From Malania oleifera (taxonomy: Eukaryota > Streptophyta > Magnoliopsida > Santalales > Ximeniaceae): a DNA stretch of 64,000 nt. A model generated the notes under the pieces. It searched no databases, had not been told where the DNA came from, and saw only the letters and a program-made list of their open reading frames with translations. Below are positions 645 to 27,700 of the stretch, piece by piece. Position 1 is the stretch's first letter, and each line of letters begins with the position of its first letter. Both the position numbers and the translations under genes were made by a program. The DNA is taken from contig NC_080424.1 in the NCBI RefSeq assembly GCF_029873635.1, forward strand, positions 1,577,501 to 1,641,500, given 5' to 3'.

Positions 645-1618
645 TGTTGATTTTGGTGTAATCCCAAGAGGGGGGTGAATTGGGTATTTTAAATTCTTTC
701 AAACTTATTTACCAATTAATCCCTACTTCTATATTTAACTAATTAATGATAGGGATTTGAAGCTGATTTAAATTACTATATCAATGACTCCCTTTTTACC
801 CAATTAAGTGTGTGTGAAGTTATTCAACATACACAAGCAAGCTAGATATTGAAATGCAATGCGGAAAATAAAGAGATAAGGGAAAAGAGAATGCAAATGC
901 AGTTTTTACGAGATTCAGCTAACCCAACTTATGTCCTCGCCTTGAGCAATCCGCTCAAGGATTCCACTATAATCTTTGCTCCTAAATTTGGGATGAAACT
1001 TCCCTTACAATCCGCTGCTTACAAAAGATACAACTTACTCCTAATTCGCTACTTACAAGAGATACAACTCTCTCCTCAAACCCCGTTCACAACCCGAATC
1101 GTGAATACAATGAAATCTGTAAAACACTCAAAATTGCTTCCAACAAAAGCTAGTGAGTACAATTCAACTTCCTAATACATAATCATATGATGAAATTTGA
1201 AGTTCGGAATGTATGAAACGATACAATCATTTAATGAATGATATATGCTTCAACAACCAATTCCCCTTTTTACCAAAACTCTCAAGTGATGATATAATTA
1301 AAAACTTTGTAGAAAATTTGGGTTATAGTTCACTTTGCGAAAATGCATGAATATCTAATGTGAACTTATTCAAAAAACTTTGTCTTGAATATTAGATCAT
1401 TCAAAATCAACAACTTTTTTTCAAATATTCAATCACACAATGATCTTTATAATATGCCAATACATATATATAATATGATTTCCAAAATTCACAAACTAAA
1501 TATAATGTTTTCCAGAAGATATCCCTCAATAAAATAAACAATTTTGAACACTAAGGATATTCAATCAAGTGTTTTAATATATCTAAATAATAAATCCTTT
1601 AACTTAACACACACTTGA

Positions 1619-4206
1619 TGTAATAACCCGAAAAAAATAAAAAAAAAATAATTAATTAAAATTATTAATTAATTAAGTGGTTAAACACTATTAAATTAAT
1701 GTATTAAATACACAAATAAAAAATAAATAGTATGAAAAAAAATTAATTAATTAATTAATAAATTAAATGTTATTAAATTAAAATAAATAAATAAATAAAT
1801 AGTAAAAAATAAAATATATATATATGTATATATATAAAAGTTAAAGTATAAGTTATATATATCTTATAAGTTAAGTAAGTAAGGTAAGTTAAGAAAAAAA
1901 AAAAAAAGGAAAAGAAGATAAGAAAGCTGAGCTTCCAGCGCAGAGAAGAAGGAGAGTTCAGGCTCTCCGTCGCCGTCTTCATTTCCGTCTCCATCTCCTC
2001 TCTCTCTTTCCTCATTTTTTGACGAATATTCAACCGATCGGGAAACAGAAGGTGTCGTTGGGTTCCTAACTCCGCCACCGACATTTCTACTGGAGCAGAT
2101 TTTTCATAAGAACGACTTAGACACTGCTTCTAGAGAAAAGTAATTTTTCCCCAATTTCTCAATTTCTGTTTAAATCTGCTCTTGAATCGACGATCAGGCA
2201 CCACCACGGGGTCCTAAACGTCGTTGTCGTCATTTTGACGTAGGTAATTTTTTAATTGGGTTTTCTAGGCCCTACTCCAAAGCGAAAGTGGGATTTGAGA
2301 AATTTGGCAATTTGACTAAATTTAAGGGTATATTTATTTATTTAGGAATTATAGCCCTAGGAAATATTTAAATAATATTTTATTCAGTAATAATTTATTG
2401 GAGTTAGGAAATTTTGATTCAGGGTCTGGGTGAGCGCCACAGGTATTTTTCAGAGTCCTTATTGGCGTAATTCAAGAAACTAGGTAAGGGGAAAAATATA
2501 TATTAAATCATAATTTTTATGAATTTAATGGAAAAATAAATTGTGTTATATGTACGTGTATATGTTTTGGTATGGGTAAAATGCCAACTGTTTAAATTAT
2601 TTTTTTTTCGAGTTTAGGGCTATTTATTAAATATGTATATGCAAAAATGAACTGATAAAAGTGGGAAATATTTCCAGGATAATTAAGTAAGAAATGAAAG
2701 GTATTTTTAGTATATAAACATTAAATGTTGGTTGGCTTATTTTACAGGCAGTGTATGAATTTTATTACTAAATTGTGTGGCATGAGATTTTGTGCAAATA
2801 TATGTTAAATGTATGATATGCAGGCTAAGTAAGTAAAGCAATGAAAATAAAATATGATATGGACAATGTTGCCTGTGTATGTTAAATGCAACCATGTAAA
2901 TGTAAGACAGCTGAAAGACAGCCATGTTAGCAGATCTAGCACACTTCTGTGTAGACTAACTGATGACAGCTAAAAGGAGCTGTGTTAGCAGATCTAGCAC
3001 GTTTCTACGTAGACTAACTGATGACAGCTAAAAGGAGCTGTGTTAGCAGATCTAGCACGTTTCTACGTAGACTAACTGATGATGGCTAAAGACCAGCTGT
3101 AGTATGAAGTAATGAAATGAAATGTTATGCAATGAAATGACGAAGAAATGACAATGAAATGAAATGACAAAGGTAAATGATGTAAATAGGAAATAGTCAT
3201 TTAAAGTGAAACGAAATGCAAAGCTAAGTTATGAACATGAATGAATGTGCATGAATGTATAATGACAGAAAAGAATGATGTATTATGATATTAGAAGTAT
3301 GTATGTACGTAGAACATGTTACGATTGGGCGAGGCATATCTTTCGCCTGAGGGCTTGCTGAGTAAGGCGAGTGCACTAATAGCTTCAGATGTGGCAGTGG
3401 CTGCATAACGCACTAGGGCAGAGGGAACCTACTTGTATGGGCGGGTAGAATTCCCTATCCTTAGGGCCTTTGCTGGTAAACTATTGTTGAATGCATGAGT
3501 ACGGGATTAATTTAACACTTGAGGGCTTACTGAGTAAGGTAAGTCCCCTGGTATGCTTAAACTGTGACCTTCGGGTTGCTAAATGTATTAGAGCAAAGGG
3601 ATGCTACTTGTATGGGCGGGTAATCACCCCTATTCTCAGGTAATCTCGTGGGTTAAACATTTGTTTGTGTTTGTTTAGGATCAGAAAATGACTTTCAGTA
3701 TTATGTTAATGATTTGCAAATATTATAAAATGATATGTATAATCTCATGATGGCGAGACGCTGAGTTTAATATATTATTTATTCCTTTACTGAGATGTGT
3801 CTCACCCGAATATGAATTCTTTTTTTTTCAAGATTTCTCAGGATCGAACTTTGAGAGCTTGAGATTTTATAACATTTTTGGAAGATATAAGAAAAATGGT
3901 ACATTTTTATGTTAATTCTTATATGTATATTTTATGTTTTATATCTTTATGTTTTAACTCAGTTATGAAAGGATAGTTGTGAAACATACTAGTATTAGTG
4001 GATAATGTTTTGGAGACATGTATATATTTGAATACTAGTGGATGATTAATTTATTATGGTTGGTAGTTAGAATTAGTTAACTCTAGTATTATGTTATATG
4101 GAGATTATGATTATATTTCCGCTGAATATATTATGGATTATGGATTATCAGGGATTTTATCAAGTATAACGCGTCGGACCCAGGTTTAAAGGTTCGGGGC
4201 GTTACA
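1619..4206. mobile_element. Solo LTR 1 (Ty3/gypsy-like), 2,588 bp, TSD CTTGA
   Basis: Starts TGTAATAACCCGAAAA and ends GGTTCGGGGCGTTACA, i.e. TG...CA. It is flanked by a perfect 5-bp duplication CTTGA at 1614-1618 and 4207-4211. Neither edge adjoins a primer-binding site, polypurine tract, gag or pol, so this is a solo LTR left by LTR-LTR recombination. The TGTAAYAACCC/GGGCGTTACA termini and the 2.6 kb length are typical of long plant Ty3/gypsy LTRs (established knowledge); the lineage is inferred. It carries a 58-bp tandem repeat at about 2906-3101 and a conserved block at about 3785-3815 (TTACTGAGATGTGTCTCACC) shared with the three nested LTRs at 6721-14431. Confidence 0.9.
2906..3101. repeat. 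58-bp tandem repeat inside solo LTR 1
   Basis: Units begin at 2906, 2965 and 3023, with a partial unit at 3081. Each starts GACAGCT and contains GTTAGCAGATCTAGCACGTT and CGTAGACTAACTGATG. The spacing is 59, 58 and 58 bp. The same array is shorter in the LTRs at 7030-12550 (about 8660-8790) and 9784-12424 (about 11180-11310), and absent from the outermost LTR. Confidence 0.85.
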
Positions 4207-4729
4207 CTTGAATCAAAACTGGTTAACCTATGGCAAAAACCTTTCTTAAGTAGTGATCTTATTTAAATAACCTATACATAAATGCACTCAAGATCAATCA
4301 ATCAACTTATGTTCAATAACTGATTTAGATATGAAAAGTTCTTTGCAAGATATATATATCAAAAGACAATCTAGCAATCATTGTGCACTCCTTTTTCATG
4401 TTTATTCTCATAAGAGTTTTTCATATATACTGATTTGCTTATTGATATATATATAACGAGGTAGTCTTAGTTCAGATTCGATGTAAGAACTTGAAATCCC
4501 AATCTAAAGTTTCAGCGGTGTGTTCAAGTTGAGATAGACGTGCAATCTCCTCAAGCGAGTGCCAAAGGTTTGTTCTCCTCTATTCTCAATGATCTTAGCT
4601 TACGCACTAGGGTTTAGATGTTCAATATATAGGTGTCTTACCCTTAGAATTAATCTTGACCGTTTGATCAAAAAATATCTCGTGAGTTCTCTTATTAAAA
4701 ATTAAAATTTTAAGTTTTCCCGCGAGTTT

Positions 4730-5035
4730 AAACGACTAAGGTCAAAAGCCCAAATGACTGAAGTTCCTTAAAGTTTCAAAAAAATAACCTAGACACAGGG
4801 TCAAACGATTGAAATGTTCAGACGACTAAAGTGTCGGGTTTAGATGACTGAAGTCTGAGTTCAGTCTTCTAAGGTGCTTTTGTCAGGTTTTGTATTTCAC
4901 CATTAATTCTTCAGGCGACTGAACTTAATCTTCGGTCTTCTGAAAAAATGCTTCAGATGACTAAGGTTATCTTCAGTCTTCTGAAATGGCAATTTCAGGC
5001 GACTGACTGCTGAGTTCGGTCGTCTAAAGTACCTC
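4730..5035. repeat. Degenerate short direct/inverted repeats (GACTGAAG / CTTCAGTC type)
   Basis: Motifs such as GACGACTAAAG, GGCGACTGAA, CTTCAGTCTTCTG and TTCGGTCGTCTAAAG recur every 20-40 bp in both orientations. This looks like a decayed array able to form small hairpins. It lies within the TGTTGA...TCAACA repeat; function unknown. Confidence 0.5.
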
Positions 5036-5473
5036 TTTCCTGAATTTTTTTTTATACTTTGAAAAATTGATTTCCTCTCTTTCTTGGCTCTTTTATAAAA
5101 ATATTTTTTGAAATTTTAAAAATATTTCTAAGTCCATGAATGTCGCCTAATGGTGTACATGAAATGCATGAGTCATAAGGTCATTCTAGATTATGATTTG
5201 AGCTTCAAATTAAATCATAGAAAAATATAAATGCACGAGTTCTAAGTATCCATTCCCATGACGCTCTTGAACTTGTTGCTTACATTTTCATTCTTGTACT
5301 CTTTAAGTTCCATGGATTTTGCGAAGATATGTATGTTTTATTCTTTATGGCTTCTGTGACTTGTTATCATTTCGTGCATGTTTAATATAGGTCATGTTCA
5401 CTATCTCAATGCACATATCAAATACCAAGTGATTTGATATTGTCAAAATAAGATTGAACTAATAGAGTCAACA

Positions 5474-6715
5474 AATAAAAAAATCAATAAAGAGGTATAT
5501 TGAATGGTTATAAAAAGGGACCCCATTAGGAAGACAAGACATCTCATTCACACTCATTCCTTTATTATTATGATCACATAATCCTTCCCAATCTTTTGAC
5601 TTAGGCATCAAAGTAAACTCTTGGAGTATACCTCGGGTCCTTTAAGTTGTCTTTATCTCATTATTGACAGGTGATCGAAGTCGTGATTTATCCAAACTCT
5701 ATCGAACAAATTTTGGCAACAACGACGAATGAAATTTATTTTAAAATTTATAAATGTTGAACATCTCTTGTTTGGGAGTTGACTATAATTTTTAAAATTA
5801 ACTTGATTACTTGAATATTTAATTTTCAAATTTGATTGCGGCATCGTGTGTGTAAAAAATTATCATATCCCTTGTATTTGTTCAACATTTATATTTTGCT
5901 ACAGAAAGGAAAAATGAAAATATTCAACCAATAAAAGTTTATTCTAAAATTTAGGAGTTTTCAAAAAAATCCATACTTAGGAAAGAACGTGGCTACATAT
6001 TTTTTGAAATTTACTTGACTGCCATATCTTTTAATTTTCAAAATTGTCTTGATTCTCGTCAAATTTAGTACTGCACATTTTATTATTTATATTTAAAACA
6101 CATTTTAATGATAATTAGTCAACAAAACAGGAAAATAAAATTTTAAGTGAATAAAAATCTAATTTAAAAATTTAAAGATTAAAAAATATTTGGTTTGTAA
6201 AATATCCCAATTACCTTTATTTTTTGAAATTAATTTCATTTAATGTTCAAAATTGACTAAATTCTCGACCAAATCAACTGAATCGAATCGATATTATTTA
6301 TTTTTGGCTAACTTTAGCATTATATAGTGGCAATTACATTAATATTATTTTTAAAAATAAATGTAATAATAAATAGTCAATAGAATAGAAAACTAAAATT
6401 TGTCAAATAAAAATTTACTTAGTTAAAAAATGTCAAAATTCATGTTTATGAAAGATCATGGTAGCCTTTGAGTTTCGAAACTAAATCCATATTTCGTGTA
6501 ACAAGAAATAGCCAATAATGATTTAAAAGTCATATGATTAATTATTCAAATTCCAAATTCATGTTAATTATGCAAAAAATTTTATCTAACAAAATTAATA
6601 GTTAATAATATCTTACAACTTTGAGATATTCGCTCTAGTCAAAAAATAAATATAGTTAATATGGATATATTTGACAATAATAGTCTCATTAATAAAAAAC
6701 TAATTGTGCATAGCT
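5474..6715. other. Unassigned AT-rich DNA between two repeat blocks
   Basis: Strongly AT-rich, with no recognisable coding segment, RNA gene or bounded repeat. The small reverse-strand frame near 5653-5844 has no protein features I recognise and is treated as chance. Confidence 0.5.
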
Positions 6716-7226
6716 CCGGATGTAGTGATCCAAAAAGAAAAATAAAAATAAAAAAAAATAATTAAATAAAATTAAAAATTAAAAAATTAATTAAAAAATA
6801 ATATTTATTAATTAAATAATATAATATAATATATTGTAATAAAAGATTATATATATATAAAAATATGTAAAGGATGCTGACGCCACTCCTCCGTCTCTCT
6901 TCTTTCTTTCCTTAATTTCTCGACGGATATTCGGCATATCGGGAAATGGAAGGTGTCATTGGATTCCTAATTCTACCATCGATATTTCTATTTGAGCGGA
7001 TTTGTCATGGGAGCGGCTTAGGCACTACTTCTAAAGACCCGAAAGATTAAAATAATTAAGAGAAAAAAATATATAATTAATTAATTAATTAAAATTACTA
7101 ATTAACTAATTAGTTACACATTATTAAATTGATGTATTAAATAAATAAATAAAAAGAATAATAATAATAATTGAAATAAGAGATATATATAAATATATAT
7201 ATATAAAAGTTATGTAAAAGTTAAAG

Positions 7227-7229
7227 TTT

Positions 7230-7272
<43 letters not shown>

Positions 7273-7308
7273 TTGAAGATATCATAGATGGATAAGTAAA
7301 AGTTAAAG

Positions 7309-7352
<44 letters not shown>
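7227..7352. repeat. Two long (AT)n arrays in LTR B
   Basis: Pure AT runs at about 7229-7266 and 7313-7352 are each followed by a GTTTGAAGATATC segment, showing that the array and its flank were duplicated together. The frame 7310-7552 reads through one of them and is not a gene. Confidence 0.8.
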
Positions 7353-7355
<3 letters not shown>

Positions 7356-9783
7356 TGAAGATATCCTGAAGCAAAAGCTTCAGAAGAAAGAAAGATTTTT
7401 TTTTTCTCTAGAGAGGAGCGTCGCTTGAGAGTTTTTCCTGCGCCCTCCGCTTGCTCTCCGTTTTCGTCTCTCATTCTCTCAATTTCTCGACGAATTTGCA
7501 GCAGATCGGAAAACGGAATGTGCCGTTGGATTTCTGATTCTACTGCCGACATTTCTATTAGAGTAGATTGGTCGTGGGAACGACTTAGACACTGCTCTTG
7601 TGGAAAGGTACTATTTTCTCATTTTCTCAATTTTGCTTTAAATCTACTGTTAAATCGGCGAACGGGTACCACTACATGGTTCTAATCGTCGTCGCCGTCA
7701 TTTTGACGTAGGTAATTTTTCAATTGTGATTTTCTAAACCCTACTCCAAAGCGAGAGTGAGATTTGAGAAATTTGACAAATTAATTAAATTTGCGGGTAT
7801 AACTGTAAATTGAAAATTATGATCCTAGAAAATATTTAAATAGTACGTTATTTAAAAATAATTTAAATGGAATTAGGATTTTTGAATCAGGGACCGAGTA
7901 AGCGCCGCGGGTGTAATTTTGGGCCCCGCAAACATAATTTAGAAAATTAAGTAGGAGTATTAAATATTAGTTTAAATGTTAATTTTAGGTGTGTGGAGCC
8001 TAGGGAAGGCTAGATTGGGTAGTATTTTGGGGAAATAAATTAATTAATTTAGGAAATTTGGTAATTTGGTTATATTTAAGGATATATTTATTTATTTAGA
8101 ATTTATGGGCCTATAAAATATTAAAATGATATTTTGTTCGGGATTAATTACATGGGATTAGAATTTTTGATTCAGGATCCGAGTGAGCACCGCAGGTATT
8201 TTTTCGGAGTCCCTGTCGGTGTAGTTCAAGAAACAAGGTAAGGAATAAATTTATATATTAAATTAGGTTTTTCATGAATTAAAAATGAACATGTGTTATT
8301 TATGTATATATGTTTTTTTATGTGGGTTTAAAATGTTAGCCATGAAATTTATATTTTCTGAACTTAGGATTGTTGATATAGTTATGTATGTGTGAAAGTA
8401 AACAAATGAAAGTGAAAGAAATTTTTTAAGGAATTATGTAAGAAATGAAGTGTATTTTGAGCATGTAAATGTTAAATGTGGGTTGACTTATTTTATGAGA
8501 AATATGCATGAATTTTACTGCTAAATTGTGTGGCATGAGAATCTGTGCAAATTTTATATTAAATGTATGAGATGCAGGTTAAGTAAGTAAAACAATGAGA
8601 ATAAAATATGATATAGACAATGTTGCCTGTGTATGTTAAATGCAACCATGTAAATGTAAGACAGCTGAAAGACAGTCATGTTAGCAGATCTAGCACACTT
8701 CTGTGTAGACTAACTGATGACAGTTAAAAGGAGCTGTGTTAGTAGATCTAGCACGTTTCTACGTAGACTAACTGATGATGGCTAAAGACCAGCTGTAGTA
8801 CGAAGTAATAAAATGAAATGTTATGCAATGCAATGACGATGAAAAGACAATGAAATGAAATGACAAAGGTAAATGATGTAAATGGGAAAAAGTCACTTAA
8901 AATGAAACGAAATGCAAATTTAAGTTATGAACAGGAATGAATGTGCATGAATGTATAATGACAGAAAATAATGATGTATAATAATATTAGAAGTATGTAT
9001 GTACATAGAACATGTTACGATTGGGCGAGACGTACTCTTCGTCTGAGGGCTTGCTGAGTAAGGCGAGTGCACTAGTAGTTTCAGATGTGGCTGCAGCTGC
9101 ATAACGCACTAGAGCAAAGGGAACCTACTTGTATGGGCGGGTAGATTTCCCTATCCTTAGGACCTTTGCCGGTAAGCTATTGTTGAACAGTGTGAGTACA
9201 AGAATAATTTATCACTTGAGGGCTTACTGAGTAAGGTGAGTGCCCTAATATGCTTTAACTGTGACCTTTGGGTTGTCAAAAATATCAGAGCAAAGGGGTG
9301 CTACTTGTATGGGCGGGTAATCACCCTTATCCTCAGGTAATCTCGTAGGTTAAACATTTGCATGTGTTTGATTAGGTTCAGGAAATGATTTCATAAATTA
9401 CGTTAACGATTTTCAAATGTTAAATAATATGTCATATATAAACTCATGTTGGCCACACACTGTTTTAAAATATGGTTTCTTCCCTTACTGAGATGTGTCT
9501 CACCCGAATAAGAATTTATTTTTTTTTCAGGATTTCTTCGAGATTGAGCTTAGAGAGTTCGAGATTTTTATCGCATTATTGGGAGATATAAGAAAAAGGG
9601 TATAAGTATTTTAATGATGTTTTCACAGAAAGTAAATATCTAAATTTTATGTCTTTATGTTTTAAGACTATTGAGTAAGGAATTGTTGTGAAAATACTGA
9701 AATGCTTTTAGAGATGTATGTATATATGGAAATGCAGGTATTGGATGGATACTTTGGATTATAAATAGAAATTAGTAAACTCT

Positions 9784-10071
9784 TGTAATAACCTGAGAAA
9801 AAAAAATTAAAATAATAAAAATAATTAATTAATTAATTGGTTAAACACTATTAAATTAATGTATTAAATAAATAAATAAAAATAAATAGTATAATACTAA
9901 TAATAATTATTAATTAATTAATGAATTAATTAAATGTTATTAAATTAAATAAATAAATAGTAAAAAATAAGGAATAAAGATATATACATATATATATATA
10001 TGTAATATATATATATATAAATATATATGTAAGCTTAATATATATATATATATATAAAGTATAAAATATAA

Positions 10072-10119
<48 letters not shown>

Positions 10120-12424
10120 AAGTAAAGTTAAGTTAAGGTAAGTTAAAGAAAGAAAAAAAAAAAGAAAAAAAAAAAAAAAAACAAGATAAAGAAGCTTGCT
10201 GAAGCTTCTTCTGCAAATGGGAATTGTAGAGAGCTTTAGCTCTCTCTCGTCGTCTCGCCTCTCCATCTTCATCTCTCTCTCTTTCCTCATTTCTTAACGA
10301 GTTTGCGGCGAATTGGGAAACGGAAGGTGTCGTTGGGTTCCTAACTCTGCCACCGACATTTCTATTGGAACAGATTTTTCATAAGAATGACTAAGGCACT
10401 ACTCTTGGGGAAAGGTAATTTTTCCTCAATTTCTCAATTTCTGGTTAAATCTGTTGTTGAGTTGACGATCAGGTACCACCACGGTGTCCTAATCGTCGTT
10501 GTCGTCATTTTGACATAGGTAATTTTTCAATTGGGGTTTTCTAAACCCTACTCTAAAGCGAGAGTGAGATTTAGGAAATTTGGCAATTTGACTAAATTTA
10601 AGGGTATATTTATTTATTTAAAAATTATGGCCCTAGGAAATATTTAAATAATATTTTATTCAAGAATAATTTATCGAACTAGGAATTTAATTTCAGGGTC
10701 CGGGTGAGCGCCGCAGGTATTTTTTGGAGTCCTTGTTGGCGTAGTTCAAGAAATCAGGTAAGGGAAAAAATATATATTAAATCAGAATTTTTATGAATTT
10801 AATGGAAAAATAAATTGTGTTATATGTACGTGTATATGTTTCAGTATGAGTAAAATGTCAACTGTTTAAATTATATTTTTTTGAGTTTAGGGCTGTTTAT
10901 TAGATATGTATATGCAAAAATGAACTGATGAAAGTGGAAAATATTTTCAGGATAATTAAGTAAGAAATGAAAGGTATTTTTAGTATATAAACATTAAATG
11001 TTGGTTGGCTTATTTTACAGGCAGTGTATGAATTTTATTACTAAATTGTGTGGCATGAGATTCTGTGCAAATATATGTTAAATGTATGAGATGCAGGCTA
11101 AGTAAGTAAAGCAATGAAAATAAAATATGATATGGACAATGTTGCCTGTGTATGTTAAATGCAACCATGTAAATGTAAGACAGCTGAAAGACAGTCATGT
11201 TAGCAGATCTAGCACATTTCTGTGTAGACTAACTGATGACAGCTAAAAGGAGTTGTGTTAGCAGATCTAGCACGTTTCTACGTAGACTAACTGATGATGG
11301 CCAAAGACCAGCTGTAGTACAAAGGAATGAAATGAAAATGTTATGAAATGAAATGACGATAAAATGGCAATGAAATGAAATGACGAAGGTAAATTATGTA
11401 AATGGGAAAGAGTCACTTAAAGTGAAACGAAATGTAAAGTTAAGTTATGAATATGAATGAATGTGCATGAATGTATAATGATAGAAAAGAATGATGTATT
11501 ATGATATTAGAAGTATGTATGTACGTAGAACATGTTACGAATGGGCGAGGAGTACCTTTCGCCTGAGGGCTTGCTAAGTAAGACGAGTGCACTGGTAGCT
11601 ACAGATGTGGCAGTAGCTGCATAACGTACTAGGGCAAAGGGAACCTACTTGTATAGGCGGGTAGATTTCCCTATCCTTAGGGCCTTTACTGGTAAACTAT
11701 TGTTGAACACATGAGTACGAGATCAGTTTAACACTTGAGGGCTTACTGAGTAAGGTGAGTGCCCTGGTATGCTTAAATCGTGACCTTCGGGTTGCTAAAT
11801 GTATTAGAGCAGAGGGGTGCTACTTGTATGGGCAGGTAATCACCCCTATTCTCAGGTGATCTCGTGGGTTAAACATTTGCATGTGTTTGTTTAATATCAG
11901 AAAATGACTTTCAGTATTATGTTAATGATTTGCAAATATTATAAAATGATATGTATAATCTAATGATGGTCACACGCTGAGTTTCATATATTGTTTCTTC
12001 CCTTACTGAGATGTGTCTCACCCGAATATGAATTCATTTTTTTCAGGATTTCTCAGGATCGAGCTTTGAGAGCTCGAGATTTTATAACATTTTTTGGAAG
12101 ATATAAGAAAAAAGGATATATTTTTATGTTAATTTTGATATATATATTTTGTGTTTTATAATTTATGTTTTATGTTTTATAAGATATGGATGGTTGTAAA
12201 ACTTACTGGTATTAGCGGATAATGTTTTGGAGATATGTATATATTTGAATACTGGTGGATGATTAATTTATTATGGTTGGTAGTTAGAATTAGTAAACTC
12301 TTGTATTATGTTATGTGGAGATTATGGTTATATTTTCTGCTACATATATTATGGATTATGGATTATCAGGGATTTTATCAGGTATAACGCACCGGACCCG
12401 GGAATAAGGGTTCGGGGCGTTACA
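9784..12424. mobile_element. Solo LTR C (youngest, innermost), 2,641 bp, TSD ACTCT
   Basis: Starts TGTAATAACCTGAG and ends AGGGTTCGGGGCGTTACA. It is flanked by a perfect duplication ACTCT at 9779-9783 and 12425-12429. Immediately downstream the last 121 bp of LTR B resumes, which proves the insertion order C into B into A. It resembles solo LTR 1 (1619-4206) closely throughout, including two 58-bp units, and includes an (AT)n array near 10078-10116. No internal retroelement domain remains. Confidence 0.9.
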
Positions 12425-14436
12425 ACTCTGGTATTGTGTTATATAAAGATTTTATTTATATTTTCCGCTGCATATGATATTGATTATGGATTATCGAGGT
12501 TTGTCACGTATAACGTGCCGGACCCGGGATTAAGGGTTCGGGGTGTTACACTACTCATGGGGAAAGGTAACTTTTCCCCATTTCCCTAATTTCTCCTTAA
12601 ATATGCCGTTAAATCGACGATCGGGCACCACCACATGGTCTTAGTCGTAATAGTTATCATTTTGGCGTGAGTAAATTTTCAATTAGGGTTTTCTAGGCCA
12701 CACTCCAAAGCGAGAGTTAAATTTGGGAAATAAGTAAATTGACTATATTTGAGGGTATAATAATTAATTTAGAATTTATGGGCTTAGAAAATATTAAAAT
12801 AGTATTTTATTTAAGGTTAATTTAATGGAACTAGAATTTTTATGTCAGGGCTCGGTTGAGCACTGTAGGTATCTTTTCGAGGTCCCTATTGGCGTAGTTC
12901 AAGAAACTAGGTAAGGGGAAAATATATATATTAAACCAGAATTTTTATGAATTTAATGAAAAATGAATTGTGTTATATATACGTGTATATGTTTCAGTTT
13001 GGGTTTAAAATGTCAACCTTTTAAATTATGTTTTCCGAGCCTTTAGCTATTTTATTAGATACTTATATGTGAAATTGAACTAATTAAAGTGAAATATTTT
13101 TCAGAATAATTATGTAAGAAATTAAAGGTATTTTTTTTTCTAGTATGTGAATGCTAAATGTGGATTGACTTATTTTATGGGAAATATATATGAATTTTAC
13201 TGCTAAATGCTGTGAAATGAGTAAATAGGAATGTTGTGTGGAAATATGTTATATGTATGAGATACAGGATATGCATGAAATGAACTGAGCATAAAAATGT
13301 TTTATGAAATATGCTGCATGTGAGTGTTAATGCAACCATGTAAAACAACTGAAAGATGTTGGGTATGAAAATAGAAATGAAATGTGAAATATGAACAATG
13401 TAAAATGGGAAAGAGTCACGTAAAGTGAAATGAAATGAAAAGTAAAAGATGAAAACATGAACAGTTGATAAATGTAGAATAATGACAAACAAAATAATGT
13501 ATTATGGTATTATCAGTATTTATGCTGGTAGAACATGTTACGTTTGGGCGAGACAAACTCTTCGCCTGAGGGCTTGCTAAGAAAGGCTAGTGCCCTGGTT
13601 GTATCAAATGTAGCAGTAGGCTACATAACGTTGTAGGGCAGAGGGAAACTACTTGTATGGGCGGGTAGATTTCCCTATTATTGGGAGCCTTCGCAGGTAA
13701 ACTTTTGGTATGAACTATGTGAGTGCGAGATTAATCTATCACTTGAGGACTTACTGAGTAAGGTGAGTGTCCTGATATGCTTTTGCTGTGACCTTTGGGT
13801 TGCCTAATGTATCAGAGCAGATGGGTGCTACTTATATGGGCAGGTAAGCACCTTTATCCTTAGGTAATCTCGTGGGTAAAATACCTTACATGTATTTGAA
13901 TAGGATCAGAAAATGATTTCATAAATTATCTTAATGATTTACAAATGATGAATAATATGTTATATACAAACCTCGTGTTGGCCACACACTGTTTTATTAT
14001 ATTGTTTCTTTCCTTACTAAGATGTGTCTCACCCGAATATGAACTTATCTTTTTCATGACCTCCACGAGATTGAGCTTAGAGAACTTGAGCTATTATAGC
14101 ACTTTTGAGGAAAATGGTATAATTTTGATAATATTTTAGGATGTAAATATTTTATATTTTAAGTCTTCTGAAAAATGGATGGTTATCCAACATACTGTGT
14201 TTGTGAATACTGGAAGTGTATGTTATGTTTTGGAGATATGTATATATGTGAATACAGGTGGAAGCATGGTTTATTATGGTGTGTAGATAGATTTAGAAAA
14301 CTCTAGTATTATATTTGTTGGAAGATTATATTTATGATTTATGCTGCATAAATGATATTAGAATGTGGATTATCAGATAAATGAATGGATTGGTAGCACT
14401 CTAGGCCCACGTAGAGGGTCGAGGCGTTACATCGGA

Positions 14437-14711
14437 TCCCTATTTAAATAAAGAAACTACTCTACATACAAATTTGTATGGTATATCTTTGCTACTCCAT
14501 ACAAAAATGCACCCAAACCGATCAATGGATTCTATCTTACATGTATTCAAAAATTAGATTGAGATGATTGGAAAAAGAAAGGAATAATTTTTAATTTTAT
14601 TTATAGTTAAAATGAAAGCCGGTGTCAAACATAGCAAACAACTTCGTCAACTTACAACTTCAAAGAATCAATATCTTGGGACATTCGAAAGATGGCTAAA
14701 AAGCTATTATC
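14437..14711. other. Short unassigned spacer
   Basis: DNA between the right TSD of solo LTR A and the SINE. No gene or repeat boundary was recognised. Confidence 0.45.
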
Positions 14712-14991: not shown

Positions 14992-17260
14992 TGTAACAAC
15001 CCGGGATTCTTACACAAGGCCTCATTGACGAACATAGGGAATTCATTAATGAGTGCATAAGGGGACCTTGTCGACAAAGCCACGCCTCGTCGACGAGAAG
15101 ATACCAAGAAGGATTTTTGGGACAGTCTGAAATTCATCGACGAGAGAGAAAGTTCGTCGACGAAATCATTGAAGGACTCGTCGACGAGATGACGTGTCTC
15201 GTCAACTAATCTAGCCCTAGAAATAGCTAAAACTCAAATTTTAATCAAAACCTTTTCTCTCTCTCTCTCTCTCTCCTACGACTCCAGCAACCCTTTTCTC
15301 TCTCTCTCCTACGACTCCCTCCCCTTATCTCTTCGATCTTGGCCCCATTTCTCATCGGATTGAAGATCCGAGGACACCACGACGCTCCACACGAAGTTCT
15401 TTGCAAGTCTGCCGGAACAGATCGTGAGGAAAGTTGATTTGAAATTCATTCCAAATCCAGGGTAAGGTGTTTTATTACGATTATGCCTTCCTTGTAGTTA
15501 TGAGAAATGTTGTAGGTAAGGAAATACTGATATTTTGCTCTGGGGGATATTGTTTTCAGGATATTGAGTTAAGAATCCTGCGGGTATAGGGTCAGAATTT
15601 AATAGGGGCTTTTCAGAGTTAAGGTAAGGGAAATATGCTATGCTAGCAATTTTTATTATGTATACAGAAGATTATGAATGAATGTTTCAAGTATGTATAT
15701 CAGATTATTTTCCAAAGAATTATGAATATTATTTTTATAGCAGAAATTATAGAAATTGAGCATGAGACTACATTTATTCAAATGTGTGGCATGAGTTATT
15801 ATAGTACCCTACATATATAGATTTTACAGTATTTCAGATATACAGATATTCATATATTTTAAAATATTAGAAATGAATGAGACTTACAGTATTTTCAGAG
15901 AAAAACATGATTTTTAGACCATAACACTCAGATAGATTATACAGTGATAGTATCAAGATGTTACAGCAGATATACAGAGTACATAGATATTATATACAGA
16001 GCATAGAGATATTATATACAGAGCATACATATATTATATACAAAGCATACATATATTATATACATAGCACACGGATATTATATACAGAATTACAGAGCAT
16101 ACAGATATTATATACAGAGCATACAAATATTATATACAGAACACACATATATTATATACAGAACATACAAATATTATATACAGAGCATACAGATAATATA
16201 GCTCAGAAATATAGTGTTATGGTTGTTTTTGAAATCATGTTAAAAGCTGCAAGATGAGTATATATTTATTTATATATATAGTATTACACGATATCAGATC
16301 CCTGTGGAAATTACAGACAGATATAATTACAGCAGAGCACAGTACCGTTGCTAATTTCAGACACGTGCAACCACATGACTCATATAGTATGTGGATTCCG
16401 TTTAACCGTGTTAGGAGAGATTTGCAGTCTCCCCAGCATGCTGGGTTGAGGTAGCCGGTTAGACAATGATAGAGGTTTGAGATAGCCCGGAGTGATTGCA
16501 GTGGGCCAGGATCTACATAGATCATTACATAGTGGTAGATGATAGAGATTGACTTACTTGGAGGGCCGACCAGAGTAAGTCCAGCTTACGGGCCGCACAA
16601 CCCTATCATGAGGGGATATATCATGATATACAGATCCCAGGGTATAGCAGAAGTTCTTATGTACAGATATATCACATAGCAGCAATTTATATTATTATAC
16701 TAGCAGTACCTTCAAATAGCAAACTCAGATACACAGTCATATTTTAAAGATTACATGATAGATAAATATATTATGTACAGTTTATCAATTTTCTCAAATT
16801 ACAGTATTATTTCAGTATTTTAATTATTTAACTCAGCCGCCACACACTAGTAATATCATATTTCCATTTAGTGAGCGTTTGTCTCATCCCAGTGACTTAC
16901 CATTTTTCAGGAAATTCAGTTAGGCGAGCGGATTAGACTCGCGAGTAAAGATTGACTTGAGCTTTCCTTGTGGGAAGGATAAGTATTTTTGAGATAACAA
17001 TATTTTTGGGATAGTCTTCATATTGTAGTGACGTCACTGGGTATTTTGTATTGTAAATGTATTGCAGAGCAGTATAGTTTTTTAGTACTTTGTATTGTAT
17101 ATAGCAGTTCCCAGTTTGTATGTACCGCTGCATAGATATGTATGATAGACAGAGTTTCCTCAGTGCTCTTGAGCCTAAGATGTTATTTTCAGTATTTCAG
17201 ACAGACGACATTTATTATGTTTAGAAAAACAAAATATTGAATAAATAGCAGGTCGTTTCA
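14992..17260. mobile_element. Solo LTR D (second Ty3-like family), 2,269 bp, TSD GTCTA
   Basis: Starts TGTAACAACCCGGGATTC and ends AGCAGGTCGTTTCA. A perfect duplication GTCTA occupies 14987-14991 and 17261-17265. Near the 5' end it repeats the motif CGTCGACGAG/CTCGTCGACGA about five times (15060-15200). A CT-rich block follows (15255-15310). It is not closely similar to LTRs A-C inside, although the termini are alike. No PBS, PPT or coding region adjoins it, so it is a solo LTR. Confidence 0.87.
15960..16200. repeat. 22-bp tandem repeat inside LTR D
   Basis: About ten imperfect units of ATATTATATACAGAGCATACAG run head to tail. Because 22 is not a multiple of 3, the frame 15958-16257 encodes a shifting repetitive peptide (YIQ/LYTE blocks) and is an artefact, not a gene. 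The units are contiguous with no spacers, so this is not a CRISPR array. Confidence 0.85.
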
Positions 17261-18765: not shown

Positions 18766-21700
18766 ATGATGAAGGTATCACGCTTCTTGCAGTCAAGGTA
18801 TGACTTCAAGCTAAAACCCTTGTTATACCCTTTGTTTCGCACTGAGTTTCTGTCATTTGTTGCACTCCAAAGCGATTGAGACACACCACAATCTTTTTGG
18901 CTTATCATTTAATTTGTACGCACAGAAATTACTTCTGGGGTAACGCAGTTTCGGGCATCAATGGATGCATTTTTCCTGGTTTTCATTATTCCTTTCATTG
19001 TTTTGGCATTGTCGCAAATGGCTCGAGGGAATTTTTTTTCCCACTGGAAAACTGACCGGGTGTGGTAGTTTCTAGATGATGTTTGACAATGGAAGAGGGA
19101 ATAGGCAAATACGTATTGTAATATGGTAAAACACATGACGCATTTAGGCGCTCTTCAGTGTTTACTGCTTATCCTGTGAAAAAGTAGGAAGGTACAGTTT
19201 AGCTGCTTCACTTTGATTTTGCACCCCGCCCCCCTCCCTTTTTTTTTCTTTTTTTTCAGATTAAGGAATGCTATATTCGTGTGTTTAAAATATAGATTGG
19301 TTGATATTATAACATATTGCGCATGCACTTCTCTCTCTTTCAGTCACCTGAACTGTTATCAGGTCGTACCTCTGCTGCATTCACCCACTTTTACTTTTAA
19401 ATGTTTCTTGTTTTAGTTTCTTAAGTCTATCATTACTTTATTTTTTGAAATAGGACCCAGATGTCTAAACAACTAGTATTTGGGAGAACTTACGAAATTC
19501 ATGATGCTTTACGGGTACATGGTTTTGCATCCCAGACTGGAATTTCCACTGCCGGAGAGAATTTTCCTCTTAATGGTATCACTAAGTGATGTTTTCGCTG
19601 TACTCTAATTTATTTGTTTAATAATTTATTTTTGTTAGTATTAACCTTCAACCTATTACTTTGTCTTTTTGTTATTGATCTTGCAGTAAATTACTCAGAT
19701 CGAATATTTGCACCTTATTCTATTTATAAGGGCAAAGCTGCTCTTTCTGCTATCCCTGTTCTGCCCACATTCGCTAAATTGGATGTATGCGTATTCCTGT
19801 TGATGTTATACTTTATGAAATATACTCTTCCTATGCAGTTCAGAAATACTCACCTTGATTCGTATTTGTTCTGGATAGTCTGGCAGTGGTCTGAAAGTTG
19901 ATCGTCGTGGTGTTATGATGTTGAAGTTCTGGCCTGCTGTTGGGGAGCGCAAATACGATTGGGAACGGAGGCAGGTAATGTTGCTCATTTGATTCTTGCC
20001 CTCAATAGTAAAATCATAAGTTATGTTTTTTGTACTTTATTCTATGCGCATGAAAGAAGGTATTAAGGTTATCATGTCGTTTAGTTGCTTTTGAGATGCA
20101 AATGCAAGAATGCTAACTCATTTTAGCTGTGTGTGTGTGTAGCTTGACTGACCAATTTAGTGTACTGTTTCAGATGTTTGCTTTGTCACCAACAGAGGTT
20201 GGGTCTCTGCTAAGTTTAGGTCCCCATGATTCTTGTGAATTCTTCCATGACCCGGCAATGAAAACAAGGTTAATTCTATTATTTTGTTGAAGCATATGTT
20301 GTCTCTAGACTCAACATGTGGTGGCAAGTTTGTTTAACTTGCAAAAGAATTACATTTTTTAGGCCTAAAGCATCTCCCCCCTCCCCCTTATTGTGTGGGC
20401 TTTCTGGTTCAAATAATGAATGTTGTATATGACATTGCAATCATTGCTGCAGTAATGCTGGCCAAGTGAGGAAGAGCTTATCAGTTAAGCCATATCCAGA
20501 TGGTACTGGATATTTCATGTCTTTGAGTAAGTACTCCATTCATTTATATTCGTGTTAATATTAGTACCATCTTCCTAGTGCGTGTATGCACACATTTCCA
20601 TCAACCGGTTTCATCAATAAGGTTTTGTTTAATGTTTCTGAGCTTTTAATTGTAAACAAGCACTGCTGTGATAGAGTTATTTCTCTGGAACTGCAGAAAT
20701 TATATAAATTGTTTTGCTGTAATTAGAACTGCACAACTGTTAAATTATTTTTGTTACTTGTTTAATTCGTCAAGACACAATTGATGCTGCATTTTTTTTC
20801 ATTTTGTATTGTTATGGAAGTCTCACTATGCTGTATTCTGAAATTCAATGTTATCTGCAATTATTGCTGCTAAAAGTTGTAACAACCAGGAAAGTACAAA
20901 TATTTTAGGCATTAACTTAGTGGGATGGTTATGGAGTAGGATCTGTAAGGCAGGTAACTAAGCTACTTTTCTTACATATTATGATATAATAAGATTTTGC
21001 CTACCTGTTAGTGATTTGTTGTAGCTTGGGTTATTCCATTCAGTGCTTGAGTCCTCTATTTTAGTTTCTGGAGGCTCAATGATTATGAGTGAAGTATGAA
21101 AAAGGTGTGGGATTATCTCTACACTATATTTGTTGCATTTGGAGGGAAAGAAACAGGAGAGTACTTAAGGTGGAGGAGCTTTACATCCAGAATTAAAGGC
21201 TATTATTTTGCATACACTTATTTTTTTGAGCTGTAGAAATTTTATACAAGATCTCTATGCTTGGGCTGGAATTTTTGATCTATAACTTTGCACAGTTCAT
21301 CTGAAGCCTTTGTAAAGGGGCTGGCAGTCATGTGGTGCCCTTGAAGGTTGTTTGGTATTGTTTCTATTTTTCTTTTTTCTCTTTCTGTTGTAGCATGATC
21401 TAGAAGTGGAGAAGAATTGAAAATAGTATTTCTTGTCACTTTTAAAATAAGGTACAATCTGAATGTCTTATAGACTATAAGGATAATCTAAAAGGAAAGA
21501 ATAATAAAGGAAAGAATAACAAAAGGAAAGAAAGACAATTGCTAACAAATCTCCTAGAATATCTCCTAAGAATATATCCTTGAATATCTCCTTAGAATAT
21601 TTACATAATTACAGAAATTTCTCCTATAATCAAGGAGAGTTGACTGGATAAATTTGGAAACTTTCCAACACTCCCCCTCAAGCTGGTTTGAAGATGCATT

Positions 21701-24700
21701 CCATAGTCAGCTTGCTGATCAAATTTTCAAATTGCTTCTTTGGTAGTCCTTTTGTAAGTATATCTGCTACTTGTTCAATAGTAGAGATATAGGGTAAACA
21801 AATCAGACCACTGTGCAGCTTCTCCTTTATAAAATGCTTGTCGACCTCAACATATTTTGTTCTATCGTGAAGCACTGGATTGTGAGCAATGGCTGTGGCA
21901 GATTTGTTATCGCAATACAGTCTCATGGGTAGTGGATTAGTGACTTTCAATTCTTCCAATAATTTTTTAATCCACAACACTTCACAAATTCCATGAGCAA
22001 CTGCTCTAAATTCTGCCTCTGCACTACTCCTAGCTACCACATTTTATTTTTTGCTTCGCCATGTAACCAAATTTCCACCAACAGAGGCACCGGTTATACT
22101 CCCACGCTAATCAGCATCAGTGTGTACCTCAACTTGTAGATGTCTATGGTCTTCAACCAATAGACCTTTTCTTGGAGTTCCCTTTAAATATCTCAGGATT
22201 CTATAACTGCATCAAAGTGGTCAGGCACTGGTGAGTGCCTGAATTGGCTTACCATACTGATAGCAAAGGCTATCTCAGGACGTGCATGTGATAGATAAAG
22301 TAGCCTTCCAACCAATCTTTGGTACTGATCTCCATTGGTTATTTCTTCATGCTTGGCAGGTTGTAGTTTAAGATTAGGCTTTATAGGTGTCTCAGCTGCT
22401 TTACACCCTAGTAAACTTGTTTCTCCAAGCAAGTCAAGCACATATTTTCTTTGTGAAACAAAAATACCTTTTCTCGACCTTGTAAATTCCATACTAGAAA
22501 ATACTTCAAGTCACTGAAGTCTTTAGTCTCAAATTCATAGACAAGCATTTGTTTTAATTTCTCAATTTCCTTGCTGTCATTACCTGTCAAGATAATGTTG
22601 TCAACATAGACAACTAGAATAGCAACCTTCCCTTCACTTGAGTGCTTATAGAACATGGTGTGATGAGCTTGACCTTGGCTGTAACCATGACCCTTTACAG
22701 CCTTTCCAAAGCGTTCAAACCAAGCTCTCGGAGATTGCTTGAGCCCATACAATGATTTTTTCAATTTACACACCTTTTCTCAGCCAATATTACCTTCAAA
22801 ATCTGGTGGTAAATCCATAAACACTTCATCCTCTAGATCTCCATTTAAAAAAGCATTCTTTACATCCAACTGGTGTAAGGGCTAGTTAGAATGTGCAGCT
22901 AAGGAGAGTAACACTCGGATTGAGTTTATCTTGGCCACTAGAGCAAAATTTTTTGATAGTCAATTCCGTATGTTTTTGTAAACCCTTTTGCGATGAGTCT
23001 CACCTTGTGTCTCTCTATATTGCCATCAACCTTGCATTTAACTGTAAACACCCACTTGCAACCTACAATTTTCTTTCCGTAGTGCATTCATCTCTTCAAG
23101 AACTGCTAACTTCCAATATGGATGATCCATGGCTTCTTGAATGATCCTTGGAACAAATAAGTGAGAAATATTGGATGTAAAGGCCTTATGATTATGAGAG
23201 AGTATATGGTATGATAAATATTTGGCAATGGGGTGTGTGGTACAGGTTCTAACTCCTTTCCTAATGGCTATAAGTACATCAAGGTCAGTAGATTGATCAA
23301 CTGTAATTGTAGTAGAAGGATTACCTGGGATTTCCAAATGACTAGTTTTTGGAGGCGATGATTGATTCTGCTATGAAATTGTGGGATGATCCTTGGTATT
23401 AGAATGATTCTTGCCTCTAGTATAAACACGAAGCTCAGAAGAGGGATTATTATGTAGCAATTCTCCCCCTGTTTGTGATTCCCTTATGCTTTGTACAAGC
23501 AGATTGGGATTTCCATTTTTTTCACTGTTTAAAATTTCAGTTCCTTGAATGTTTTGTGGAGGGATGTCAATGTCAAAGAAAACATTAGGGATTGGTATAG
23601 AAGTTTGCCAAAACTAATCTTCACTACTCCCCCCCCTCGAGGTGAAGATAAGTTTGGTTAAGGTAAGATTGATTTTCAAAATGACATCCATACTGATGTG
23701 AATTTTTTTTGTTTTTGGATTCAAACATTTGTACCCTCTCTTAGTGGGAGCATATCCAAGAAACACACATTTTTCAGCCCTAGGATCAAGTTTAGATATA
23801 AGATGAGCTAGTATATGAACAAAAATAGTGCATCTAAATACCTTTAGAGGCAAATAAGAAATTATCCTATTATCAGGAAAGGAATTTTTTAGGCATGCTA
23901 AGGGAGTGATATACTGCAGCACACATGTAGGCATTCTATTAATAAGGTAACAAGAAGTTAGAATAACACCCCCCCCCCCCACCCCACAAATATTTTGGAA
24001 TATGCATAGAAAACATTATAGTCTGTGCAATCTCAAGTAAATGACGATTTTTTCTTTCAGCGATGCCATTTTGTTGTGGGGTGTCACGACACGTGGATTG
24101 ATGTTGAATCCCTCTTTATTTCAAAAAATTTCCCAAAACTTGGTTGAAATATTCTATACCATTATCCATACGAAGTATGCTCATTTTTGTGAGAAATTGA
24201 TTTTCGATCATACTATAAAAATTCTTGAATAATATTTCAACTTCAGATTTTCCATTCATCAAATACACCCAACAAATCTGAGTATGATCATCTATAAAAG
24301 TCACAAACCATTTTTTCCTGGGTAAGGTAGTAACCTTAGAGGGACCCCAAACATCACTATGAATCAAATAAAAAAGTTTTGATGCACGGTAGCCTTTTGA
24401 ATTATAAGGAACTTGATGACTTTTTGATAAATGACAAACATCACAATGAAGAGAAGTACAATCCAAATTTTTCAACAGACTAGGCAACAAATATTTTAAA
24501 TAAGAAAAGCTAGGACGCCCTAATCTAAGTTGCCAAAGCATTATTTGATCACGTATAGGGATTGAAGTAGACTACCACTCAAGCCCTGAGCTTGTTTATT
24601 GCTAAATAGGGTATCATCAAAATAATAAAGGCCCCGAGTTCTGGTCCTGAAATTCACTGTGAGAATCAAAGAATATGATACCAACAATTAGAATCACGGG

Positions 24701-27700
24701 ATAATCTACTAATAGATAGAAGATTGCAAGTAAGTTTAGGAACATGAAGGACATATTTAATTCTATTTTCTCGGAGATTCTAATTGAACCTGCACCTGCA
24801 ATGGATGAAAGACTCCCATCTGCAATCCTCACCTTTTTATTACCTGGACAAGAATAATACGATTGAAACAATTGAGATATACTGGTCATATGGTCGGATG
24901 CACTTGAATCAATAATCCGTGGTGCAAAGGCTAAAGAATTGGAATAGGCACTCGACATATTATCTGTTTGGGTCAAGGAACCAATAGAAGTACCGGATAT
25001 CGGATTGGATTTCAGCAGTTGAAGAAGTTGATCCATCTGCTCTGAACTTAGAAGATTGGTTTGGGCTTCATTTGCTCTAGGAATCACTTGGTTGTTTCCA
25101 GGTCCAGGTTTGCTGCTCTTCCATTTTGCTGGTTTTCCATGTAGTTTCTAGCAGATTTTTTCGGTATGACGTGGCTTATTACAATAGTCACACCATACTC
25201 GAGATTTTTGATTGGGATATGACCGCTGTATAGAGGCATTAGCAGTAGCCAAAACAGTAGGATTAGCAACAACCAAAGCTGAGTTCTTCACTGTTCCATG
25301 AGCCCCTTTTTTCTTTAGCATAACATTCCAATGACAATCTTCACGTCTCACTTCAGAAATACCTCTCCAATTGGAGGTAGAGGTTGTCTACCAATAATCC
25401 TCCGCCCAACCTCATCAAACTCATCATTGAGTCCAACCAAGAATTTAAAAATTCTTGCATTTTCCACCCTCTTCTTGTTGTAGTTGCAATCATCAGGGGT
25501 CTTCCATTCATAATCATTGAATAGATCCAAGTCCTGCCATGGTCCCTTAAGGACATTAAAATATTTAGTCACACTGTCTTCCCCTTGTTGGGTCTTGCCA
25601 ATTTTTTGTTGCAATTCATAAATCCGAGAATTTTCCAAGGTCAGAATACATCTGACTAACATTAACCCAAAGTTCTTTTGTAGTAGGATAGCACATGTAA
25701 TTAGCACTAATATCTTCATTCATTGCATTCACAAGCCAAGCCATAATCATGGAATTTTGAGCATCCCATATAGCATATGATGGGTTTGCTCTATCAGGGA
25801 CTTTGGTTTCACCAGTAAGGTACCCAATCTTACCTCTCCCACGGATGTGCATTTGAACTGACTGAGACCATCTCAAGAAGTTGGCTTCATTGAGACGGAT
25901 ATTTGTGATTTGGACTGAATGGGGTTCGGTATGGGCTACTTTGGTTTCAGTTTTGGTATTGACCACAGGTTCAGGTCTGGCCATGGTCTTAAATTTTCAC
26001 GGAATTGTCGAAATTTCCAATTTCCGTCACCCTAGAAATCAAAATGGTGGGCGATTTTTGACTTGTATAATTTCCATCGAAATCTCAACGAATGAACTGA
26101 AATTTATTGAAATCTCGAAATTTTAGGGAAATTTGTCAAAATTTTAACTATAAAATGAACTTTCATCGGAATTCAAATGAGAGATTTAGGAGTGAAGTGA
26201 AATTTCTCTTTTAATTTAATTTATTTTATTTTATCGAAACAAAAGATCATTACAAGTGTTTTTGAAATTATATAAAAAAATAAACTTACAGTAACATTTT
26301 ATTTAGCTATTTATGTCTAAATTATCATTATTTTTATAATAAATAATATTTAAATGATTTATGAATTTCATTTGTATTAATTAAATATGTTGTACATTAT
26401 CTTACAAATGTGTTTGATACACATACTATTTTACAACTTTTCCCCCTAATACGAAACGTAGGTGTATTTAATTTGAAATATATTAGTCCTAAAACTTGTA
26501 TTATTATGTTTGTTAACCATTTCTAAAGTTTCACAAAGAATTCCATGATTTACTACTAATTTCCGTTATTTTTTTCAAATCCAAATCGAAATCGACATTG
26601 AAATCGAAATTCCTGTCAAAATTTTTGTACTTTTAGAGCTTCGAAATTTGAGTCGAAATCGAAATTTAAGACCTTGGGTCTGGCCATGGTGGAAGTTTCA
26701 GAAATTTCAGACATAATGGAAGCTGAACAGGGTTAAGGCAATAAGGCCTAGGTTTTAGAGGCTATAACTGCCGAAAGCAAAAGAAAACTAGGCTCTAATA
26801 CCATCTAGAAGTGGAGAAGAATTGAAATATTATTTCTTATTATTTTAAAATAAGGTACAAATGTACAATCTGAATGTCTTATAGACTACCAGGATAATCT
26901 AAAAGGAAAGATTAATAAAGGAAAGAATAACAAAAATTTCTAGCAAATCTCCTAAGAATCTATCCTAGAATATCTCCTAAGAATATTTACATAATTACAG
27001 AAATTTCTCCTATAATCAGAGTGAGAGTTGACTGGATAAATTTGGAAACTTTCCAACACATGATAAAGAAACTAGTGGCAACATGTATGTGTGTGTTGCT
27101 AGTTTTTAGTTTATGTTGTTGGTTTTTGGCTGTCGTGGTGACAATTGTCTGGTTTTCAGTTGTTGACACAACTTGTTGACATAGTATTTTAATATTTGGA
27201 ATTCACTTCCGTGGATTAAATTATTATATGAACAGATTTTTTAATGAAAAATTAAAATAAACTTGCCATGTGAATTTAAAATAAAATAAATAAATTCTAA
27301 AAATTTAAAGGTTATAAAAATCATTCAAAAATATCAGCAATTTTTATCTTTCATATACAATAGTATTATTCTCGGAGAATTAGAAAGGGAGTTAAATTTT
27401 TCTCATGATGCAACTCTTCTCTCCTCTCCCTTTCTGATGTGCTTTAGTGTTATCTTCCTCAGCCTTATTGTGACTATGATGGAGCAGGATATCCAGAGGA
27501 TAGTGCCTTTTATTTAAGATAGGAAAAAGTCAGGAAAGGGGCATTTTGTTTAGGTTAGAGTGCAACCTAAGTCACAATCAGTATATCTTCATGGGCAGCA
27601 AAGTTGTTTTCATTTGAGATTTTGTTGGTCTTTGGTAGGTAAGGAGGTTTTTCAGTTGCACTAAAAAATTGGTGGGAGCTGTATTGATGGTGATCAGGCT

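Follow-up and report, generated by a model that had tools for sequence, protein, structure and literature searches.

Three related solo LTRs lie one inside another on the + strand of the window, the 64,000-nucleotide stretch of Malania oleifera DNA analyzed here: the innermost (C) is inserted in the middle one (B), which is inserted in the outermost (A), and each is bordered by its own 5-bp target duplication. The probability of this arrangement is estimated at about 0.93. A fourth solo LTR (D), which is un-nested and was absent from the first-pass annotation, is located 2.5 kb upstream of the nest in the same orientation. All four LTRs contain a tandem pair of ~150-nt modules for which one common branched RNA fold is predicted.

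Borders and Target Duplications of the Solo LTRs

The four LTRs and their target duplications are positioned as follows (the duplications carry no strand).

6721..14431, +, solo LTR A, outermost; pieces 6721-7029 and 12556-14431, 2185 bp summed; ends TGTAGTGATC...CGAGGCGTTACA
6716..6720, left target duplication of A, CCGGA
14432..14436, right target duplication of A, TCGGA, one mismatch
7030..12550, +, solo LTR B; pieces 7030-9783 and 12430-12550, 2875 bp summed; 5′ end TCTAAAGACC
7025..7029, left target duplication of B, CTACT
12551..12555, right target duplication of B, CTACT
9784..12424, +, solo LTR C, innermost, uninterrupted, 2641 bp
9779..9783, left target duplication of C, ACTCT
12425..12429, right target duplication of C, ACTCT
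1619..4206, +, solo LTR D, un-nested, 2588 bp; CTTGA duplications at 1614-1618 and 4207-4211

The coordinates, ends and duplications assigned to A, B and C in the first-pass annotation proved exact when the sequence was re-read. The duplications match at all five positions for B, C and D and at four of five for A; given the local base composition, a fixed boundary would show five matching positions by chance with a probability of 0.002, and at least four with a probability of 0.026. The single mismatch in A affects the first C of CCGGA, which stands in a CCG (CHG) context and not in the CpG context that had been proposed; one mismatch in five bases is in any case no clock that could bear out the earlier statement that the duplications decay in the expected order. 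The terminal TG...CA is retained in three of the four LTRs (A, C and D), and B starts with TC (TCTAAA); because TG is absent from its 5′ end, the left border of B rests on the duplication together with the alignment. No interior sequence is present in A, B, C or D, and the LTR pieces fill the spans between the duplications. A BLAST search of the LTR pieces against the whole window gave no matches beyond these four regions, which share one strand.

Continuity Across the Inner Junctions

Both inner junctions were checked by joining the flanks of the insert with one copy of the duplication and aligning the product to its relatives. At the site of B in A, the joined flanks align without gaps over 140 bp, with 109 matching positions to C and 107 each to D and to B itself, and at the site of C in B they align to C (67/80), to D (67/80, with one gap) and to A (102/139, with seven gaps). 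For segment 12430-12550, the BLAST identities are 82% with the 3′ end of C and 81% with that of D; segment 12556-14431 is matched piecewise by B, C and D at 74–79%. The refutation named in the first-pass annotation was a failure of these two segments to complete B and A; both were found to align as continuations, and BLAST and the joined flanks support its description of a three-layer nest of solo LTRs flanked by target duplications. An arrangement of three un-nested or overlapping repeats is ruled out by the joined flanks, which read through. The two inner insertion sites correspond to ~620 and ~2518 on the 2641-bp scale of C, which rules out a single insertion hot spot.

A composite element assembled in one event by template switching, instead of a stepwise nest, would recall elements known in the Triticeae (PMC1950507), and the fact that the closeness of B to C and to D varies from segment to segment could be taken in its favor. 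Such a composite predicts a single outer duplication, whereas all three LTRs are bordered by separate duplications exactly at their ends, and both inner sites can be rejoined cleanly; the inner duplications rule out this origin, to which a negligible probability is assigned.

Origin of the Nest

In the proposed stepwise history, a first retrotransposon would have inserted at 6716-6720 and given rise to A, a related element would then have inserted into the LTR sequence of A to yield B, and a third would have inserted into B close to its 3′ end to yield C. The two LTRs of each element would have recombined with one another, with loss of the interior and one LTR, leaving a single LTR between intact duplications, and the same LTR–LTR recombination would account for D. 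What the sequence shows directly are the borders and duplications, the succession A, B, C and the lack of interiors. The recombination step itself is inferred, and it may have come before or after the next insertion. The order of insertion follows from the nesting alone, which gives the sequence of events, and no insertion dates are given because distances among different solo LTRs represent the divergence of their source copies; PMC7251063 likewise notes that nesting yields relative age and that LTR divergence can mislead. The earlier statement that the family targeted itself three times is valid for two self-insertions, that of B into A and that of C into B; the sequence around A has no other match within the 64-kb window.

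Nested solo LTRs are an already known phenomenon. Nests three or four layers deep, some of them composed of solo LTRs, are described in PMC1950507, which ascribes these to LTR–LTR recombination within one element, and within-family nesting is treated in PMC11020628. Compared with the plant nests described in PMC1950507, the present one differs only in degree, in that every one of its three layers is a solo LTR, and these belong to related families and share one strand. It is a clean textbook case in which the layering provides the relative order of insertion without a clock.

Resemblance to Del (Tekay) LTRs

A mobile unit other than an LTR, namely a non-coding unit of 2.2–2.9 kb that moves as a whole and generates 5-bp duplications, would explain why only single units are found and why the window has neither paired LTRs nor a primer site or coding region for them. 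This explanation is considered very improbable, since the TGT...ACA ends, the 5-bp duplications and the size are in keeping with Del/Tekay LTRs of plants, the published U3 end TGTAACACCC is matched at 8/10 by C and D, and GGG is found at −8 to −10 in B, C and D. For the LTR reading, the lengths of the present LTRs fall inside the range of 1143–4831 bp published for Ty3/Gypsy Del (Tekay) elements in PMC4029996, the source of the U3 comparison. The GGG corresponds to the type A U5 described there and occurs in three of the four LTRs, A having AGG at −10 to −8; at U3 position 6, which is among the most conserved, T is found here in contrast to C in the maize/sorghum consensus. The LTR ends resemble the Del/Tekay type, a likeness that does not settle the lineage. 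The solo LTRs contain no coding region, and neither a full-length member nor a primer site or polypurine tract was found in the window. An exact pattern search of viral and genome contig collections, where plant nuclear DNA is not expected, returned no matches, and no paper presenting the string TGTAATAACC as an LTR or retrotransposon sequence was found in the open-access literature.

Relatedness of the Four LTRs

The nearest relative of C is D (90%; pairwise identity 0.897), followed by lower values for B–C (0.796), B–D (0.789) and A versus B, C or D (0.736–0.757). Under the usual rule, one family is defined by 80% identity over most of the length. Only one of the six pairs, C–D, reaches this value, and by the rule A and B would be relatives outside the C–D family; the earlier description of A, B and C as one family is loose, given these identities. 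On 2069 four-way columns, the numbers of private changes are 255 for A, 179 for B, 49 for C and 69 for D, counts whose reading is limited in that A and B have no close sister among the four LTRs compared. They are in line with the nesting order, and also include the divergence of the source copies. Among the private changes, C-to-T plus G-to-A changes relate to the reverse changes as 25:9 in C, 30:18 in D, 61:46 in B and 63:66 in A, where the direction of change is unreadable because A is the outgroup.

The difference between B and C falls to 0.062 in the best 400 columns (~11060-11480 of C), compared with 0.204 overall, and in the same stretch the difference between B and D is 0.048, compared with 0.211 overall, contrasts reached in none of 1000 permutations. 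All six LTR pairs are uneven along their length (0 or 1 of 1000 permutations). These patterns would fit either exchange between source elements or uneven constraint. Local gene conversion between B and C inside the nest could also have brought B close to C at this stretch, as the permutation result for this pair would allow; B is, however, equally near to the un-nested D, so that the sharing looks older and appears to belong to the source elements, and the variation of all six pairs along their length can be explained in part by uneven constraint. Because B is as near to D as to C, conversion within the nest is not needed, and it is regarded as unlikely. Separately, B contains an internal repeat of ~110 bp at a spacing of 285–286 bp (7810-7919 and 8096-8204), which is single in A and C.

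Predicted Structured RNA Modules

The eight predicted modules, two in tandem in each LTR, are located as follows.

13545..13695, +, RNA module 1 of A
13722..13874, +, RNA module 2 of A
9022..9170, +, RNA module 1 of B
9195..9347, +, RNA module 2 of B; own folding energy stronger on the − strand
11542..11691, +, RNA module 1 of C
11714..11866, +, RNA module 2 of C; consensus helices present in the single-sequence fold
3326..3474, +, RNA module 1 of D
3498..3650, +, RNA module 2 of D

Like modules are ~80–93% identical, and module 1 and module 2 share 60–68% identity; they are richer in G+C (0.42–0.54) than the rest. RNAalifold predicted a branched structure for the eight modules, with 50 pairs when the flanks were included and 43 pairs on the core. 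In the 50-pair structure, 94.3% of the 400 pair cells of the eight copies are standard, compared with 39–46% paired in slid structures. The alifold energy is −39.3, compared with −14.9 in shuffles that preserve conservation classes, none of 300 of which is as low, and the z score is −8.37 on the + strand and −2.78 on the − strand. The cells changed on both sides number 27, compared with 14.1 in shuffles (reached in 0/500); the ten pairs with a double change are equaled in 55 of 500 shuffles, and the 35 further pair types in 487 of 500. All of these counts come from eight related rows, which contain few independent events. Between module 1 and module 2, 30 of the 43 pairs are the same, seven have changes on one side (one of them non-standard in one type) and six on both sides (five of them standard in both types).

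G-U cells outnumber A-C cells by 89 to 7 of 344, in a structure that had been chosen on the + strand. A scan of the four-LTR alignment in 20 windows, covering those windows of alignment block 2 that had sufficient columns, gave the two lowest + strand z scores at the modules (−3.85 and −5.01, compared with −0.51 and −2.67 on the − strand); a module-free stretch, 10408-10563 of C, had a + strand z score of −3.68 in the same scan. Folding of the single sequences is uneven, with + strand z scores that range between −1.01 and −5.24; for module 2 of B, the − strand (−4.29) is stronger than the + strand (−1.01). Judging from the strand bias, the + strand is the probable sense strand. A covariance model search of the window recovered only the eight modules used to build the model. 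No Rfam family was found over the window at its gathering threshold, which rules out a hammerhead or other known RNA on this measure, and the six matches below threshold (E up to 5) in 1600-14500 include none over a module.

From these observations, it is very probable that selection preserved the branched fold during the active life of the source elements; solo LTRs have ceased to replicate, so such selection must have operated on the transcripts of active source elements. In the alternative view, an old duplication and G+C-rich sequence produced the fold as a by-product, without RNA selection. The higher G+C content of the modules, the small number of independent events and the two of five shuffle measures that lend no support to covariation are compatible with such an origin, which is nevertheless judged rather improbable, as class-preserving shuffles reach the energy in 0/300 cases, the − strand is much weaker and the pairs are kept in module types that are only 60–68% identical.

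The modules are inferred to be a putative cis-acting element of the retrotransposon transcript, with mixed results in some controls. A more specific role in the transcript as a packaging, dimerization or leader element is the leading guess, and is put well below even odds. A broader proposal, tentatively advanced and put at slightly below even odds, is that a long-LTR plant lineage carries a duplicated ~150-nt branched module, kept by compensatory change as its two copies drifted apart to ~60–68% identity, as an undescribed cis-acting signal of its genomic transcript. No earlier report of the modules was found in the open-access literature, which does not prove their absence in print. Retrozymes (PMC4918200) similarly contain structured RNA within a plant LTR, but their LTRs are ~350 bp long, whereas the present modules would form a larger branched fold with no Rfam hammerhead match. 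The packaging and dimerization signals of BARE, cis-acting RNA signals of a plant LTR retrotransposon that are discussed in PMC3735527, would be parallels in kind, and quadruplexes have been described in plant LTR elements (PMC3902901). Should the modules prove genuine and widespread, defined RNA elements would be a feature of long plant LTRs, and a role in packaging, translation or reverse transcription would become testable.

Short tandem repeats of a 58-bp unit are positioned just upstream of the RNA modules in B, C and D.

2906..3090, +, 58-bp tandem repeat in D, ~3 units, predicted hairpin
8661..8791, +, 58-bp repeat in B, ~2 units; found by BLAST and alignment, not in the Tandem Repeats Finder output
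11179..11310, +, 58-bp repeat in C, ~2 units

The repeat is absent from A in the four-LTR alignment. For the 58-bp unit, a hairpin of 16 pairs is predicted, two of which have a double change among seven hand-cut rows.

Other Repeats in the Window

A degraded Copia-type element occupies 21398-27059 on the − strand, with broken open reading frames matching RVT_2, gag_pre-integrase, rve and Pol_BBD, and its LTR-like ends (21398-21671 and 26803-27059) are 83% identical. A LINE-type reverse transcriptase fragment (RVT_1) was identified at 60128-60628 on the − strand. A direct repeat of 0.7 kb (25981-26681 and 58756-59465, 86% identical) has one copy within the Copia-type element and the other adjoining the LINE-type sequence. 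Regions 53495-55063 and 57774-60067 share three collinear stretches that are 67–77% identical on one strand, and are probably two copies of related elements. At 15970-16200 lies a minisatellite whose unit is 22 bp long and which also shows higher-order periods.
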